From Acidobacteriaceae bacterium (lineage in GTDB: Bacteria; Acidobacteriota; Terriglobia; Terriglobales; Acidobacteriaceae): 64,000 bases of DNA. The stretch spans positions 1 to 64,000 of the forward strand of contig DAHUZH010000002.1 in NCBI GenBank assembly GCA_027306695.1, written 5' to 3'. The notes beneath the pieces were generated by a model that was not told where the DNA came from, searched no databases, and saw only the letters and a list, made by a program, of their open reading frames with translations. Below, one piece after another: positions 45,738 through 49,744 of this stretch. Within the stretch, counting starts at the first letter, position 1. Each line of letters starts with the position of its first letter. Both the position numbers and the translations under genes were made by a program.

Positions 45738-45772
45738 AAAAGCCCACCAGGACGATTCTTCTGTCGGTGGGC
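45738..45772 (-). terminator. Attenuator terminator before cysD
   Basis: On the minus strand GCCCACC (45772-45766) pairs perfectly with GGTGGGC (45748-45742), with a 17-nt loop, followed by TTTT (45741-45738). It stands 57 nt before cysD and 34 nt after the leader peptide stop. The GCCCACC arm can instead pair with GGCGGGC of the leader coding region (45830-45824, one mismatch in seven), which would prevent the terminator. A separate small hairpin (GAAGCTG/CAGCTTC, 45796-45814) contains the leader stop codon. Confidence 0.75.
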
Positions 45773-45806
45773 GAAAGATTTTAGGGTCTTACTTTGAAGC
45801 TGGGTT

Positions 45807-45914
45807 TCAGCTTCTTAGAGTGTGCCCGCCCGTCCAGAAGATGTGCGATTGTGCCCGCATGGAACACATGGGACACATGCACATACAGCGGGTCTGAAGG
45901 GCCGACACTTGCAT
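45807..45914 (-). CDS. Cys/Met-rich leader peptide of the cysDNH operon
   Basis: A 35-codon frame, MQVSALQTRC then MCMCPMCSM and RAQSHIFWTGGHTLRS, ending TGA at 45807. It has four cysteine and four methionine codons in a 10-codon run (45885 to 45858). It begins 4 nt below the predicted transcription start and shows no Shine-Dalgarno, so translation would be near-leaderless. The run sits upstream of an alternative pairing region, as in classic amino-acid attenuators. I propose that stalling at Cys (or Met) codons leaves GGCGGGC free to form an antiterminator. The amino-acid bias is visible; regulation is inference. Confidence 0.72.
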   Translation of the reverse strand: MQVSALQTRCMCMCPMCSMRAQSHIFWTGGHTLRS

Positions 45915-45998: not shown

Positions 45999-47219
45999 CT
46001 ACTGGATGCGCTCGAATCGGTATTTTGCTTCTTCCAGAGCATTCGAGATCGACGCGATATGGGAAGCGCCACGAGTTTCGAGCGTGATGTCGATGACTGT
46101 GTCTCCAAGATTAACGCCGTAATACGCCCGATTATGCAAGGTCTCCACGATATTGGCCTGCTGGTCTCGAAGCACCTTCGTCAACTGGTGAAGAGCTCCG
46201 GGCCGGTCTGTAAGGTGCACCCGGATTCGGATGCGCCTGCCATCCTTGACCAATCCGCGTTCGATGATCTTTGCCAGAAGGCTGACGTCGATGTTTCCTC
46301 CGCAGACGAGAACCGCCGTTTTCTCATGGTCGAGCCGAGTCTTTTTCTGGAGCAGAGCAGCAAGCGCGATTGCGCCGGCCCCTTCGGCCAGCGTCTTCTC
46401 TTTTTCGAGTAAGACCAAAATTGCATTCGCGATCTCCTCTTCGTCGACCGTAACAATTTCGTCGACGAAGCGCTGGACAAGAGGGAAAGTGTAATCTCCC
46501 GCACGCCGCACCGCGATTCCGTCTGCGATGGTCGCCTCCGCCGGAAGCGTCACCGGCCCTCCTTGTTCCATGGCGCGCAGCATGGAGGGAAGACGTTCTG
46601 TCTGTACACCAATGACGCGAATCGCCGGGTTGGTTTCTTTAATGGCGCAGGCCACGCCGCTGATCAATCCACCGCCGCCGATCGGCACAACGACAGCTTC
46701 CAGGCCCGGCACTTGTTCCAGCAATTCAAGGCCAATCGTTCCCTGACCGTTGATGACTTCTGGATCATCGAAAGGATGGAGGAATGTAAGGTCCTCTTCA
46801 TTGCAGCGGCGCCACGCTTCCGCGCAGGCTTCGTCGTAGTTGGCGCCATGCAGAATAATTTCCGCCCCAAACTCTTGCGTTGCCGTGATTTTCACCAGCG
46901 GCGTCATCAGCGGCATCACGATCTGCGTGCGAATCCCCTGTTGCGTGGCATGGTAGGCGACCGCCTGGGCGTGATTTCCCGCGCTTGCGGCAATCACTCC
47001 TCGCCGCTTTTCTTTTTCCGTAAGCGTAAAAATCTTATTCAGCGCACCCCGCTCCTTGAAGGCACCGGTCCGCTGCAAATTATCAAGTTTCAGGTAGACC
47101 TGTTGCCCGGTCTTCGTGGAGAGGTCCTCGGAATAACGGCAGGGTGAGAGATAGATATAGTTGCGGATGCGCTGTTCCGCTCGCTTGATTTCGTTGAGAG
47201 AAACGCTTGTCGGTTCCAT
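45999..47219 (-). CDS. ilvA: Threonine ammonia-lyase (threonine deaminase)
   Basis: 406 residues. Makes 2-oxobutanoate for isoleucine. PLP lysine K55 in RTGAFKERGA; phosphate loop GGGGLISG; the catalytic domain ends near residue 320. A single C-terminal ACT domain follows (IRVHLTDRPGALHQLTKVL, TVIDITLETRG), the short biodegradative-like arrangement of about 400 residues. ATG 47219 overlaps the upstream stop by one nucleotide (TAATG), so it is coupled to the AHAS-small-subunit-like gene. The Ile/Val-rich leader upstream points to a biosynthetic role. Confidence 0.94.
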   Translation of the reverse strand: MEPTSVSLNEIKRAEQRIRNYIYLSPCRYSEDLSTKTGQQVYLKLDNLQRTGAFKERGALNKIFTLTEKEKRRGVIAASAGNHAQAVAYHATQQGIRTQIVMPLMTPLVKITATQEFGAEIILHGANYDEACAEAWRRCNEEDLTFLHPFDDPEVINGQGTIGLELLEQVPGLEAVVVPIGGGGLISGVACAIKETNPAIRVIGVQTERLPSMLRAMEQGGPVTLPAEATIADGIAVRRAGDYTFPLVQRFVDEIVTVDEEEIANAILVLLEKEKTLAEGAGAIALAALLQKKTRLDHEKTAVLVCGGNIDVSLLAKIIERGLVKDGRRIRIRVHLTDRPGALHQLTKVLRDQQANIVETLHNRAYYGVNLGDTVIDITLETRGASHIASISNALEEAKYRFERIQ

Positions 47220-47870: not shown

Positions 47871-47913
47871 GAGAAAAGCCACCAACCCTTGGTGCGGGTC
47901 GGTGGCTTTTCTC
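47871..47913 (-). terminator. Attenuator terminator before the ilv operon
   Basis: A perfect 13-bp stem, GAGAAAAGCCACC (minus 47913-47901) with GGTGGCTTTTCTC (47883-47871). The 17-nt loop contains CCCGCACC (minus 47898-47891). The leader region GGTGCGGG (minus 47951-47944) is its exact complement, and GGCTTTC (47937-47931) can pair with the GAAAAGCC of the first arm. That pairing (8 + 6 bp) would replace the terminator. The run of T is inside the second arm (TTTTCTC). Confidence 0.75.
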
Positions 47914-47936
47914 GGAACTTGCTTTGTTCTGAAAGC

Positions 47937-48068
47937 CTACATCCCCGCACCATCCATAAAGCCGCTAATCTGAATTACGACAATAATGCTTACAAGGGTC
48001 GGGCACACAATACGGCTCACCTGTGGCTTGTTTAGAGTGAAGGCGCGCATTGCGGAGCTGGAAGTCAT
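47937..48068 (-). CDS. Ile/Val-rich leader peptide of the ilv operon
   Basis: A 43-codon frame (ATG 48068; a second in-frame ATG at 48050 gives 37 codons) that reads TLVSIIVVIQI in its centre and ends TAG at 47937. Four Ile and three Val codons lie within 30 nt (47996-47967). It begins about 5 nt below the predicted start point. It is followed by a strong terminator and a matching antiterminator. This is the expected layout of an ilv attenuator. The stop codon is directly beside the antiterminator strand GGCTTTC, so a ribosome reaching it would mask that strand and allow termination. Confidence 0.75.
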   Translation of the reverse strand: MTSSSAMRAFTLNKPQVSRIVCPTLVSIIVVIQISGFMDGAGM

Positions 48069-48079
48069 GTACTCTGCAA

Positions 48080-48108
48080 TGGATACCAAATGCAAAGAAG
48101 ATCGTCAA
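48080..48108 (-). promoter_or_regulatory. Predicted promoter of the ilv operon
   Basis: Minus strand: -35 TTGACG (48108-48103), 17-nt spacer, -10 TATCCA (48085-48080), a weak -10. The expected start near 48073 would give AGTAC as the whole 5' leader before ATG 48068. The region also holds the upstream area of the divergent gene at 48188. Confidence 0.45.
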
Positions 48109-48187: not shown

Positions 48188-49744
48188 ATGAATCATTTGG
48201 ATCAATCCTCTGGAGGGACATCCCGCCGCCGCTTTCTCAAGGGTATGGCGGCTGGCCCAGCTCTCGCACTCGCTTCTGGAGGCAATCTCCTGTCCCAGAT
48301 TCCGCATGAATCTGCAAGCGGGCCCACAAGGAAGACTCCTGCAAAATCCAACACGTTCGTCGCCATCCAGATCGGCGCGCGTTCCTTCGTCGACGAAGGA
48401 GTCGATCCGTGCCTCGACACTCTGCAGGAGACCGGCGGCGTCAACGTTCTTATGGCTACCGTTTTTACGTACGGCTCAGGTTTGGCCGGTCGTCAAGTCC
48501 ATGGCGAGCCCCTCCCAGACCACGGAGTCCAGGAGTATGACCGTGTTCATGGCGGCAGCTTCACCCGCGTCCATCCCGAGTTTTACGCCGACTCCCCTAT
48601 CAAGGACATTCGCGCTCCTGAGCTTGGCGACTTCGACATCCTGGCGGATGTCATTCCCAAAGCCAAGGCGAAAGGGATGCAGACTTACGCCCTCTTCGAG
48701 GAAAACTATAACCCGCGCCTCATCCCCAACTTTGAAAAGGTCGCTGAGGTGGACTTGTACGGCAAAGTAGGTTCGACTACCTGCTTCAATAACCCCTACG
48801 CGCGGGCTTTTCTCGCATCCATGGTCGCCGACTGGGCCACCAATAACGATATTGACGGCATCATGTGGGAGTCGGAGCGTCAGGGTCCACTCAACAACAC
48901 CATCGGCGCCAGTTTCAACAAGATATTTCCCCGTCGCTTTTCCTCCGCCAATTGTTTCTGCGATCACTGCATCCAGAAGGGCAAGTATGTCGGTATCGAC
49001 GGCAGCCGTGCTCGCGAAGGTTACATCGCGCTGGACCACTGGGTGAGCCGCACCCAGGCTGGCCCAAAATCTCCTGACGGAAGTTTCGTGGGTCTCTGGC
49101 GGCTGTTCCTCGAATATCCAGAGATATTTGCCTGGGAACGCTTCTGGTATACCAGCCAGGAGGAAATGTACAGTACCCTCTACGGCACAGCCAAGGCCAT
49201 CAAACCTCGCCTCCAGGTCGGGTGGCACATCATGCATGTTGTCACCATGAGTCCTTTTTACAGTGCCGACACCAGCTATGCCCGTCTTGTCCCATTCTCC
49301 GACTACCTCAAGCCATGCACCTATAACAACTGCGCCGGTCCGCGTCTTGCCCAGTACGTCCGCAACGTCCAGTCCACAGTTTTTCGCGACATGTCCCCGG
49401 AGCAGGTCCTCGAGATGCACTATGCCTTCTTCGGCTATACCGGCGAGCCTGGCCTGGACAAACTGCCGACTTCCGGCCTTTCCAGTGAGACTGTAGGCAT
49501 TGAAACTAGGCGCGCCATCGACGACGTTCAGGGCGCAATTCCCATCTACCCCGGCATCGACATCGACATACCCACAGGCCTCAATGAAAAACGCACCCAG
49601 CCCTCCGATGTTCGCGCAGCTACACTCTCCGCATTGAAAGCTGGCGCCGCAGGCGTAGTCCTTTCCCGCAAGTACGCAGAAATGAGATTGACCAATATCG
49701 CCGGGGCCAGACAGGCGCTGCAAGATGCTGGCGCGATCACCTGA
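48188..49744 (+). CDS. Tat-exported protein, probable TIM-barrel glycosidase-like
   Basis: 518 residues. Tat signal SRRRFLKGMAAGPALALASG near residues 13-32. The mature protein has alternating strands and helices of a TIM barrel: NVLMATVFTYGSG, DIDGIMWESERQG, VGWHIMHVVTMSPFY, IYPGIDIDIPTG and GAAGVVLSRKYAEM. The segment DGIMWESER may hold a catalytic carboxylate, and a CDHC pair follows it. It resembles putative glycoside hydrolases of unknown family in acidobacteria. The substrate is not inferable. It stands divergent to the ilv leader. Confidence 0.65.
   Translation: MNHLDQSSGGTSRRRFLKGMAAGPALALASGGNLLSQIPHESASGPTRKTPAKSNTFVAIQIGARSFVDEGVDPCLDTLQETGGVNVLMATVFTYGSGLAGRQVHGEPLPDHGVQEYDRVHGGSFTRVHPEFYADSPIKDIRAPELGDFDILADVIPKAKAKGMQTYALFEENYNPRLIPNFEKVAEVDLYGKVGSTTCFNNPYARAFLASMVADWATNNDIDGIMWESERQGPLNNTIGASFNKIFPRRFSSANCFCDHCIQKGKYVGIDGSRAREGYIALDHWVSRTQAGPKSPDGSFVGLWRLFLEYPEIFAWERFWYTSQEEMYSTLYGTAKAIKPRLQVGWHIMHVVTMSPFYSADTSYARLVPFSDYLKPCTYNNCAGPRLAQYVRNVQSTVFRDMSPEQVLEMHYAFFGYTGEPGLDKLPTSGLSSETVGIETRRAIDDVQGAIPIYPGIDIDIPTGLNEKRTQPSDVRAATLSALKAGAAGVVLSRKYAEMRLTNIAGARQALQDAGAIT

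Follow-up and report, generated by a model that had tools for sequence, protein, structure and literature searches.

The element described here, which lies on the minus strand ahead of an orphan ACT gene and ilvA of an Acidobacteriaceae bacterium, is judged from its sequence to be a ribosome-mediated (classical) transcription attenuator sensing Ile/Val supply, and we put the probability of this reading at about 0.92. By computation, the window (the whole stretch of 64,000 nucleotides that was analysed, contig DAHUZH010000002.1) holds a leader with cognate codons, a terminator before the first gene and an antiterminator exclusive of that terminator, and the arrangement is conserved with compensatory change, as in classical attenuators (Table 1). 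A sequence-only reading of the region had likened its layout to the classical ilv attenuator of enterobacteria, and this is supported by the anatomy, by stall-dependent folding, by conserved relatives and by a leader and terminator that co-vary. This soil acidobacterium thus very probably switches on isoleucine genes when Ile or Val runs short; we infer that the leader is translated, that termination occurs in vivo and that the element responds to Ile/Val supply. The element is well supported as a real attenuator; its kind is known, its phylum has been little studied, and it opens the way to a broader set of amino-acid-specific attenuators there.

Table 1. Positions in the window of the two attenuators, their parts and the genes that follow the first of them.
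Feature	Position	Strand	Basis or remark
Intrinsic terminator hairpin, 18 bp, loop GCACCAA	47871..47913	-	folding; covariation in 34 leaders
T-rich tract of terminator	47877-47867	-	
Antiterminator 5' strand, GGTGCGGG..GGCTTTC	47931..47951	-	overlaps leader stop TAG
Antiterminator 3' strand, AAAAGCCACCGACCCGCACC	47891..47910	-	terminator 5' arm and loop
Leader ORF, MTSSSAMRAFTLNKPQVSRIVCPTLVSIIVVIQISGFMDGAGM and stop	47937..48068	-	predicted start codon; M-T-x..-M-R start and GAGM/GVGM end before the stop common to two same-genus leaders
Alternative in-frame leader starts	ATG 48050, GTG 48020, TTG 48095	-	
Control codons ATT ATT GTC GTA ATT CAG ATT (Ile Ile Val Val Ile Gln Ile)	47967..47987	-	relatives Ile-rich at the same place
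Orphan AHAS-small-subunit-like ACT gene, 203 aa	47219..47830	-	AAAGGAG at 47849-47843
ilvA, threonine ammonia-lyase	45999..47219	-	TAATG overlap with ACT gene
Second, separate attenuator before cysD	45742..45914	-	family member, 0.1 kb behind ilvA
Second leader, MQVSALQTRCMCMCPMCSMRAQSHIFWTGGHTLRS and stop	45914-45807	-	
Cys/Met run of second leader, RCMCMCPMCSM	45887-45855	-	
Second antiterminator 5' strand	45842-45823	-	
Second terminator	45772-45742	-	

The terminator arms, GAGAAAAGCCACCGACCC (47913-47896) and GGGTTGGTGGCTTTTCTC (47888-47871), enclose the loop at 47895-47889 and form 18 pairs, one of them G-U, with 11 G+C-rich pairs ahead of the TTTTCTCATTT tract; the stem of 13 bp given in the sequence-only reading was an undercount. 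The fragment 47955-47868 folded at -44.3 kcal/mol (z -6.2), a value equalled by none of 200 shuffles. The proposed complementarity of the leader to the terminator strands was borne out by the positions of the pairs, GGTGCGGG (47951-47944) with CCCGCACC (47898-47891) and, as a second block, GGCTTT (47937-47932) with AAAGCC (47909-47904), and by a duplex energy of -28.7 kcal/mol; the whole antiterminator fold reached -30.3 kcal/mol when the transcript ended before the terminator 3' arm. The leader peptide ends in LVSIIVVIQISGFMDGAGM, and its 3' frame reads CTT GTA AGC ATT ATT GTC GTA ATT CAG ATT AGC GGC TTT ATG GAT GGT GCG GGG ATG TAG, with the stop at 47939-47937 overlapped by the antiterminator 5' strand, so that the claim of a stop beside this strand also held. 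Neither a promoter nor a Shine-Dalgarno site of the leader could be recognised convincingly in a consensus scan.

The Ile/Val-codon run that had been noticed in the leader is real and comprises six Ile/Val codons. As a chance control, a mechanical scan for T-run hairpins with a short ORF at most 90 nt upstream was applied to the window and to 100 dinucleotide-shuffled windows. The best Ile/Val density in the window, 6 of 8 residues, was found at the attenuator leader, whereas the per-window best in the shuffled set was 2-4 in 95 cases, 5 in the other five and 6 in none; an equal leader together with a terminator was likewise seen in 0 of 100.

The behaviour of the switch was examined by folding the transcript just before the terminator 3' arm, with the bases covered by the ribosome hidden. 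The nascent RNA folded as the antiterminator (-30.3 kcal/mol) whichever of the six Ile/Val codons occupied the A-site; with the A-site at the leader stop, the fold fell to -0.1 kcal/mol, the antiterminator could not form and the terminator then reached -35.3 kcal/mol. In the full-length RNA at equilibrium, the terminator was computed to be more stable than the antiterminator at every ribosome position; thus the switch must be a kinetic competition, as in known attenuators. We propose that RNA polymerase would make the leader while a ribosome follows through the leader ORF, and that scarcity of charged Ile-tRNA (here also Val-tRNA) would stall the ribosome in the IIVVIQI run. The stalled ribosome would leave GGTGCGGG..GGCTTT free to pair with AAAGCC..CCCGCACC while the terminator 3' arm has yet to be transcribed, and transcription would run on into the ACT gene and ilvA. 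With plentiful charged tRNA, the ribosome would reach the TAG and cover the antiterminator strand, and transcription would end at the 18-bp terminator.

The genes named in the sequence-only reading, an AHAS-small-subunit-like gene and ilvA, were confirmed by Pfam ALS_ss_C (4e-9, 36.8 bits against a cut-off of 23.2) and by TIGR01127 (500 bits, above the cut-off), respectively. The ACT protein scored below the equivalog cut-offs of TIGR00119 (28.9 bits against 56.9) and PRK11895 (46.5 against 119), and its sole PDB relative by sequence was a plant AHAS small subunit; it is, as judged from these profiles, related to the AHAS small subunits IlvN/IlvH and not an equivalog of them. The genome's canonical leuABCD-ilvDBNC operon was located on a different contig, where a divergent gene, identified from its sequence as LysR-type, stands ahead of it; the same scan found no attenuator there. 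On the other side of the leader, a divergent gene at 48188-49744 (plus strand) encodes a protein of 518 aa that carries a twin-arginine-like signal (SRRRFLKGMAAGPALALASGG) and for which no Pfam or NCBIfam match was obtained.

Of the 10 genomes of the same genus, only 3 (the window's, L075 and L076) had the orphan ACT gene, with no further match at comparable score among 300 family genomes; a contig search with the single ACT protein gave no match, and one with the alignment returned only the two MAGs already found. The window's ilvA is also missing from most of the genus. IlvN-like matches at 23-28% in the family were set aside as ordinary ilvN genes behind ilvB that are not orthologous to the orphan. 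A separate, stand-alone 98-aa ACT protein, preceded by an attenuator-type leader (THAIITTSSGG; L310, genome G243, genus g92), is 41% identical to the window orphan over 71 residues, a weak match, and weakly similar to IlvM.

The ACT orthologues in two same-genus MAGs (L003/L004), at 37-41% protein identity, stand behind the same attenuator. Their leaders, IIIPSIIRSIISIHMGAGM and IMIPSIIRSIIRIHMGVGM, are Ile-rich and end in HMGAGM and HMGVGM before the stop; the GAGM/GVGM end is kept, the stop lies on the antiterminator strand and the terminator is the same. The antiterminators of the orthologues use partly different pairs (GGGTG, GGC and TGTAG with CTACA, GCC and CACCC), indicating that the pairing was kept while the sequence moved. 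Both orthologous ACT genes stand alone, with no adjoining ilvA: in one MAG ilvA lies elsewhere without a leader (same-genus G006: elsewhere, no leader), and in the other, an assembly 88% complete, ilvA was not found. Within the genus the attenuator therefore goes with the ACT gene, and in other genera it stands directly before ilvA. The description of the element as an attenuator before ilvA stands in so far as ilvA is in the transcript; however, the immediate gene is the diverged AHAS-small-subunit-like ACT gene, which has no ilvA next to it in the two relatives. The absence of an Ile/Val run from orthologous leaders, which would have spoken against the sequence-only reading, was for the most part not observed, as Ile runs occur in both orthologous leaders and in nearly all leaders of the family. 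The exception is genus g87, where leaders L114 and L116 keep the hairpin and have lost the Ile run, and where ilvA is the closest to that of the window (82-84% identical).

A covariance model built from the three leaders (window and two orthologues) and searched in other genera gave matches before ilvA, ilvD and lysC, and before a PaiB-like gene that has a leuA-like gene behind it. Ile-rich attenuators precede a PaiB-like (FMN-binding) gene at L105, L112 and L294, and at L105 a leuA/cimA-like gene comes next. In a survey of 108 ilvA upstream regions, taken from further genomes in the family, the attenuator layout was present in 46 (32 by scan and 14 more by a second model, R2), and more than half of the genes examined were without such an element. 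The last 22 codons of 35 leaders comprised 22.1% Ile, 4.2% Val and 3.1% Leu, in comparison to 1.2 and 1.4% Ile in the other frames of the same leaders, and the maximal Ile count per leader was 4.9 against 0.9 +- 0.2 in shuffles. The proposed sensing of both amino acids thus agrees with the window leader, which has Ile and Val codons; for the ilvA-linked class it has to be narrowed, as this class is mainly Ile-specific and Val codons are unusual. Downstream of the last Ile codon, the antiterminator commonly follows after 11-17 nt, a spacing that fits a stalled ribosome leaving the antiterminator strand free. The ilvA-like leader L254 was repeat-like and was left out of the counts, and matches of R1 (L097, L098, L106, L109-L111 and L113) and several of R2 (e.g. 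L271, L274-L279) had no pathway leader and were taken as plain terminators or chance.

Covariation in related genomes, suggested in the sequence-only reading as a check, was found in both parts of the switch. In 34 leaders the terminator helix was 98.5% paired, and at 4 of the 8 pairs both bases had changed. A fixed-register count for the antiterminator (MAFFT alignment) was weakly above its shuffles because the register differs among lineages, and the clear covariation evidence is the register-free duplex test, which exceeded both swaps and shuffles. The family mean was -20.8 kcal/mol, compared with -13.2 +- 0.5 for shuffled leaders and -16.8 +- 0.5 for leaders swapped among genomes (-18.3 in the best of 200 swaps); in 52 further elements it was -23.2, against -17.5 swapped and -13.8 shuffled. 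Without coevolution the swapped pairs should equal the real ones, so the deficit of the swaps counts even though relatedness lowers the effective number of sequences.

These results also bear on three other explanations. The hairpin could be a constitutive intrinsic terminator, or the terminator of an upstream or opposing transcript, lying beside a chance ORF with incidental antiterminator complementarity; indeed, terminator-like hairpins are about as frequent in the window as in shuffles (11 vs 11.2), and a simple consensus scan gave no excess. We regard this as very improbable, given that the Ile/Val density of the leader was reached in no shuffled window, that the orthologues and the 46 ilvA genes are preceded by a codon run, stop position and antiterminator of this kind, that leader and terminator co-vary, and that codon identity tracks the pathway. 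An element in which the codon run is decayed or unread, and in which general transcription-translation coupling rather than Ile/Val-tRNA is in control, would resemble L114 and L116, which retain the hairpin only; the six correctly placed Ile/Val codons of the window leader and the enrichment of Ile in almost all other leaders make this improbable, if a little less so.

T-box and riboswitch leaders regulate ilv genes in other phyla. A leader of this type, or another one binding a metabolite or tRNA, with the ORF present by chance, is thus conceivable here, and PMC10272879 mentions ppGpp riboswitches upstream of ilv genes. However, Rfam gave no match in the window at gathering score, and 19 related loci searched at E up to 1 gave only weak chance matches to unrelated families. 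The conserved features are the ORF, the codon identity, the stop position and the two hairpins, and a ligand-binding leader is accordingly given very little credence in comparison to a ribosome-mediated attenuator.

When R2 was searched in 250 family and 247 phylum genomes, about 60 further elements were read, and their downstream genes were identified by reference proteins or NCBIfam, with some labels assigned by reading and representatives then checked. Leaders before ilvB/ilvD were Ile/Val/Leu-rich (ASVVILVIVGIISVIMTAAVAS and stop), those before leuA were Leu-rich and those before leuA/cimA-like genes Ile-rich, and those before lysC and hom were Thr/Ile/Met-rich (STITTTTITGAHGG and stop). 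Before hisI, His-run leaders L298, L314 and L319 (RHHGHHHHHHG, SRHHGHHHHHG and SHRHHSHHAHG, in the ~70 bases before and through the match) are accompanied by a terminator and an antiterminator, and Cys-run leaders (TCMCMCCCCCGC) occur before cysD and a peroxiredoxin gene. The codon-pathway match had a mean z of 1.05, in comparison to 0.00 +- 0.08 for permuted labels, and was reached in 0 of 5000 permutations. The test set was picked after inspection and matches with no recognisable amino-acid pathway gene were excluded; what the test establishes is an agreement of codons with pathway inside the chosen set, and the share of real matches lies outside its reach. The training of R2 on Ile leaders cannot explain the His, Cys or Thr runs.

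The window itself contains a second element of this kind. It has an antiterminator duplex of -23.2 kcal/mol, and the genes behind it are cysD-cysN-cysH and then a nitrite/sulfite-reductase gene. In other genomes, poly-Cys leaders (TCMCMCCCCCGC and similar; L296, L297 and L308) precede a peroxiredoxin gene.

We consider it likely that Acidobacteriota widely control amino-acid synthesis by leader-peptide attenuation, in which one design, a leader ORF whose stop lies on the antiterminator strand and a terminator of the GCCACC or CCCACC type, was re-coded to carry Ile, Val/Leu, Thr/Met, His or Cys codons and was captured in one genus by an orphan AHAS-small-subunit-like gene; this design is absent from Rfam and undescribed in the literature searched. 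Such elements would serve as predicted amino-acid sensors, with a specificity readable from codons, for a large soil phylum that is hard to study genetically. As terminated and full-length leaders can be counted, they may also provide starvation markers for metatranscriptomes, and they offer a case in which to study how one switch acquires other amino-acid specificities or comes to serve other genes.

Mycobacteria have cysteine-responsive poly-Cys leaders. Similar Cys runs stand before sulfur genes in the second leader of the window and in L287, and Cys runs also occur in L296, L297 and L308; in the acidobacterial elements, however, the run is joined to a terminator and antiterminator of the ilvA-leader design, and the phylum is another. 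Terms for Cys-responsive or poly-Cys leaders occur in PMC9031893 and PMC13236596. The literature searched yielded nothing more specific on acidobacterial leader peptides, and the comparative survey of 2010 by Lopatovskaya and colleagues, which is cited there and lies outside this search, may include predictions for the phylum.

For Corynebacterium, PMC10272879 describes ilvB uORF attenuators and suggests that more exist in other phyla. In the ilvB uORF and ilvB-OMG elements, an intrinsic terminator likewise follows a uORF with many branched-chain codons, and reports of ilvB-OMG cover several phyla, with codons for BCAA and Thr; these elements stand before ilvB, whereas the acidobacterial elements stand before ilvA and other pathways. 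No relevant covariance-model match to ilvB-OMG, other Rfam leader families, T-boxes or riboswitches was obtained in the window or at the 19 related loci.

The closest parallel is with enterobacteria, for which ribosome-mediated attenuators of ilvGMEDA and ilvBN are named in PMC1183508. Both systems have a leader peptide with pathway codons, a stop beside the antiterminator strand, mutually exclusive antiterminator and terminator, and an ACT small-subunit gene and ilvA downstream. They differ in phylum and have no evident sequence relation, and no match to known ilv leader RNAs was obtained in Rfam (window at gathering score, 19 relatives at E up to 1). The acidobacterial ilvA-linked leaders carry Ile almost only, and the genes are a diverged IlvN-like orphan and ilvA, while the main leu-ilvDBNC operon lies elsewhere. 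The window element works like the enterobacterial ilv attenuator but is not classed with it as a homologue.
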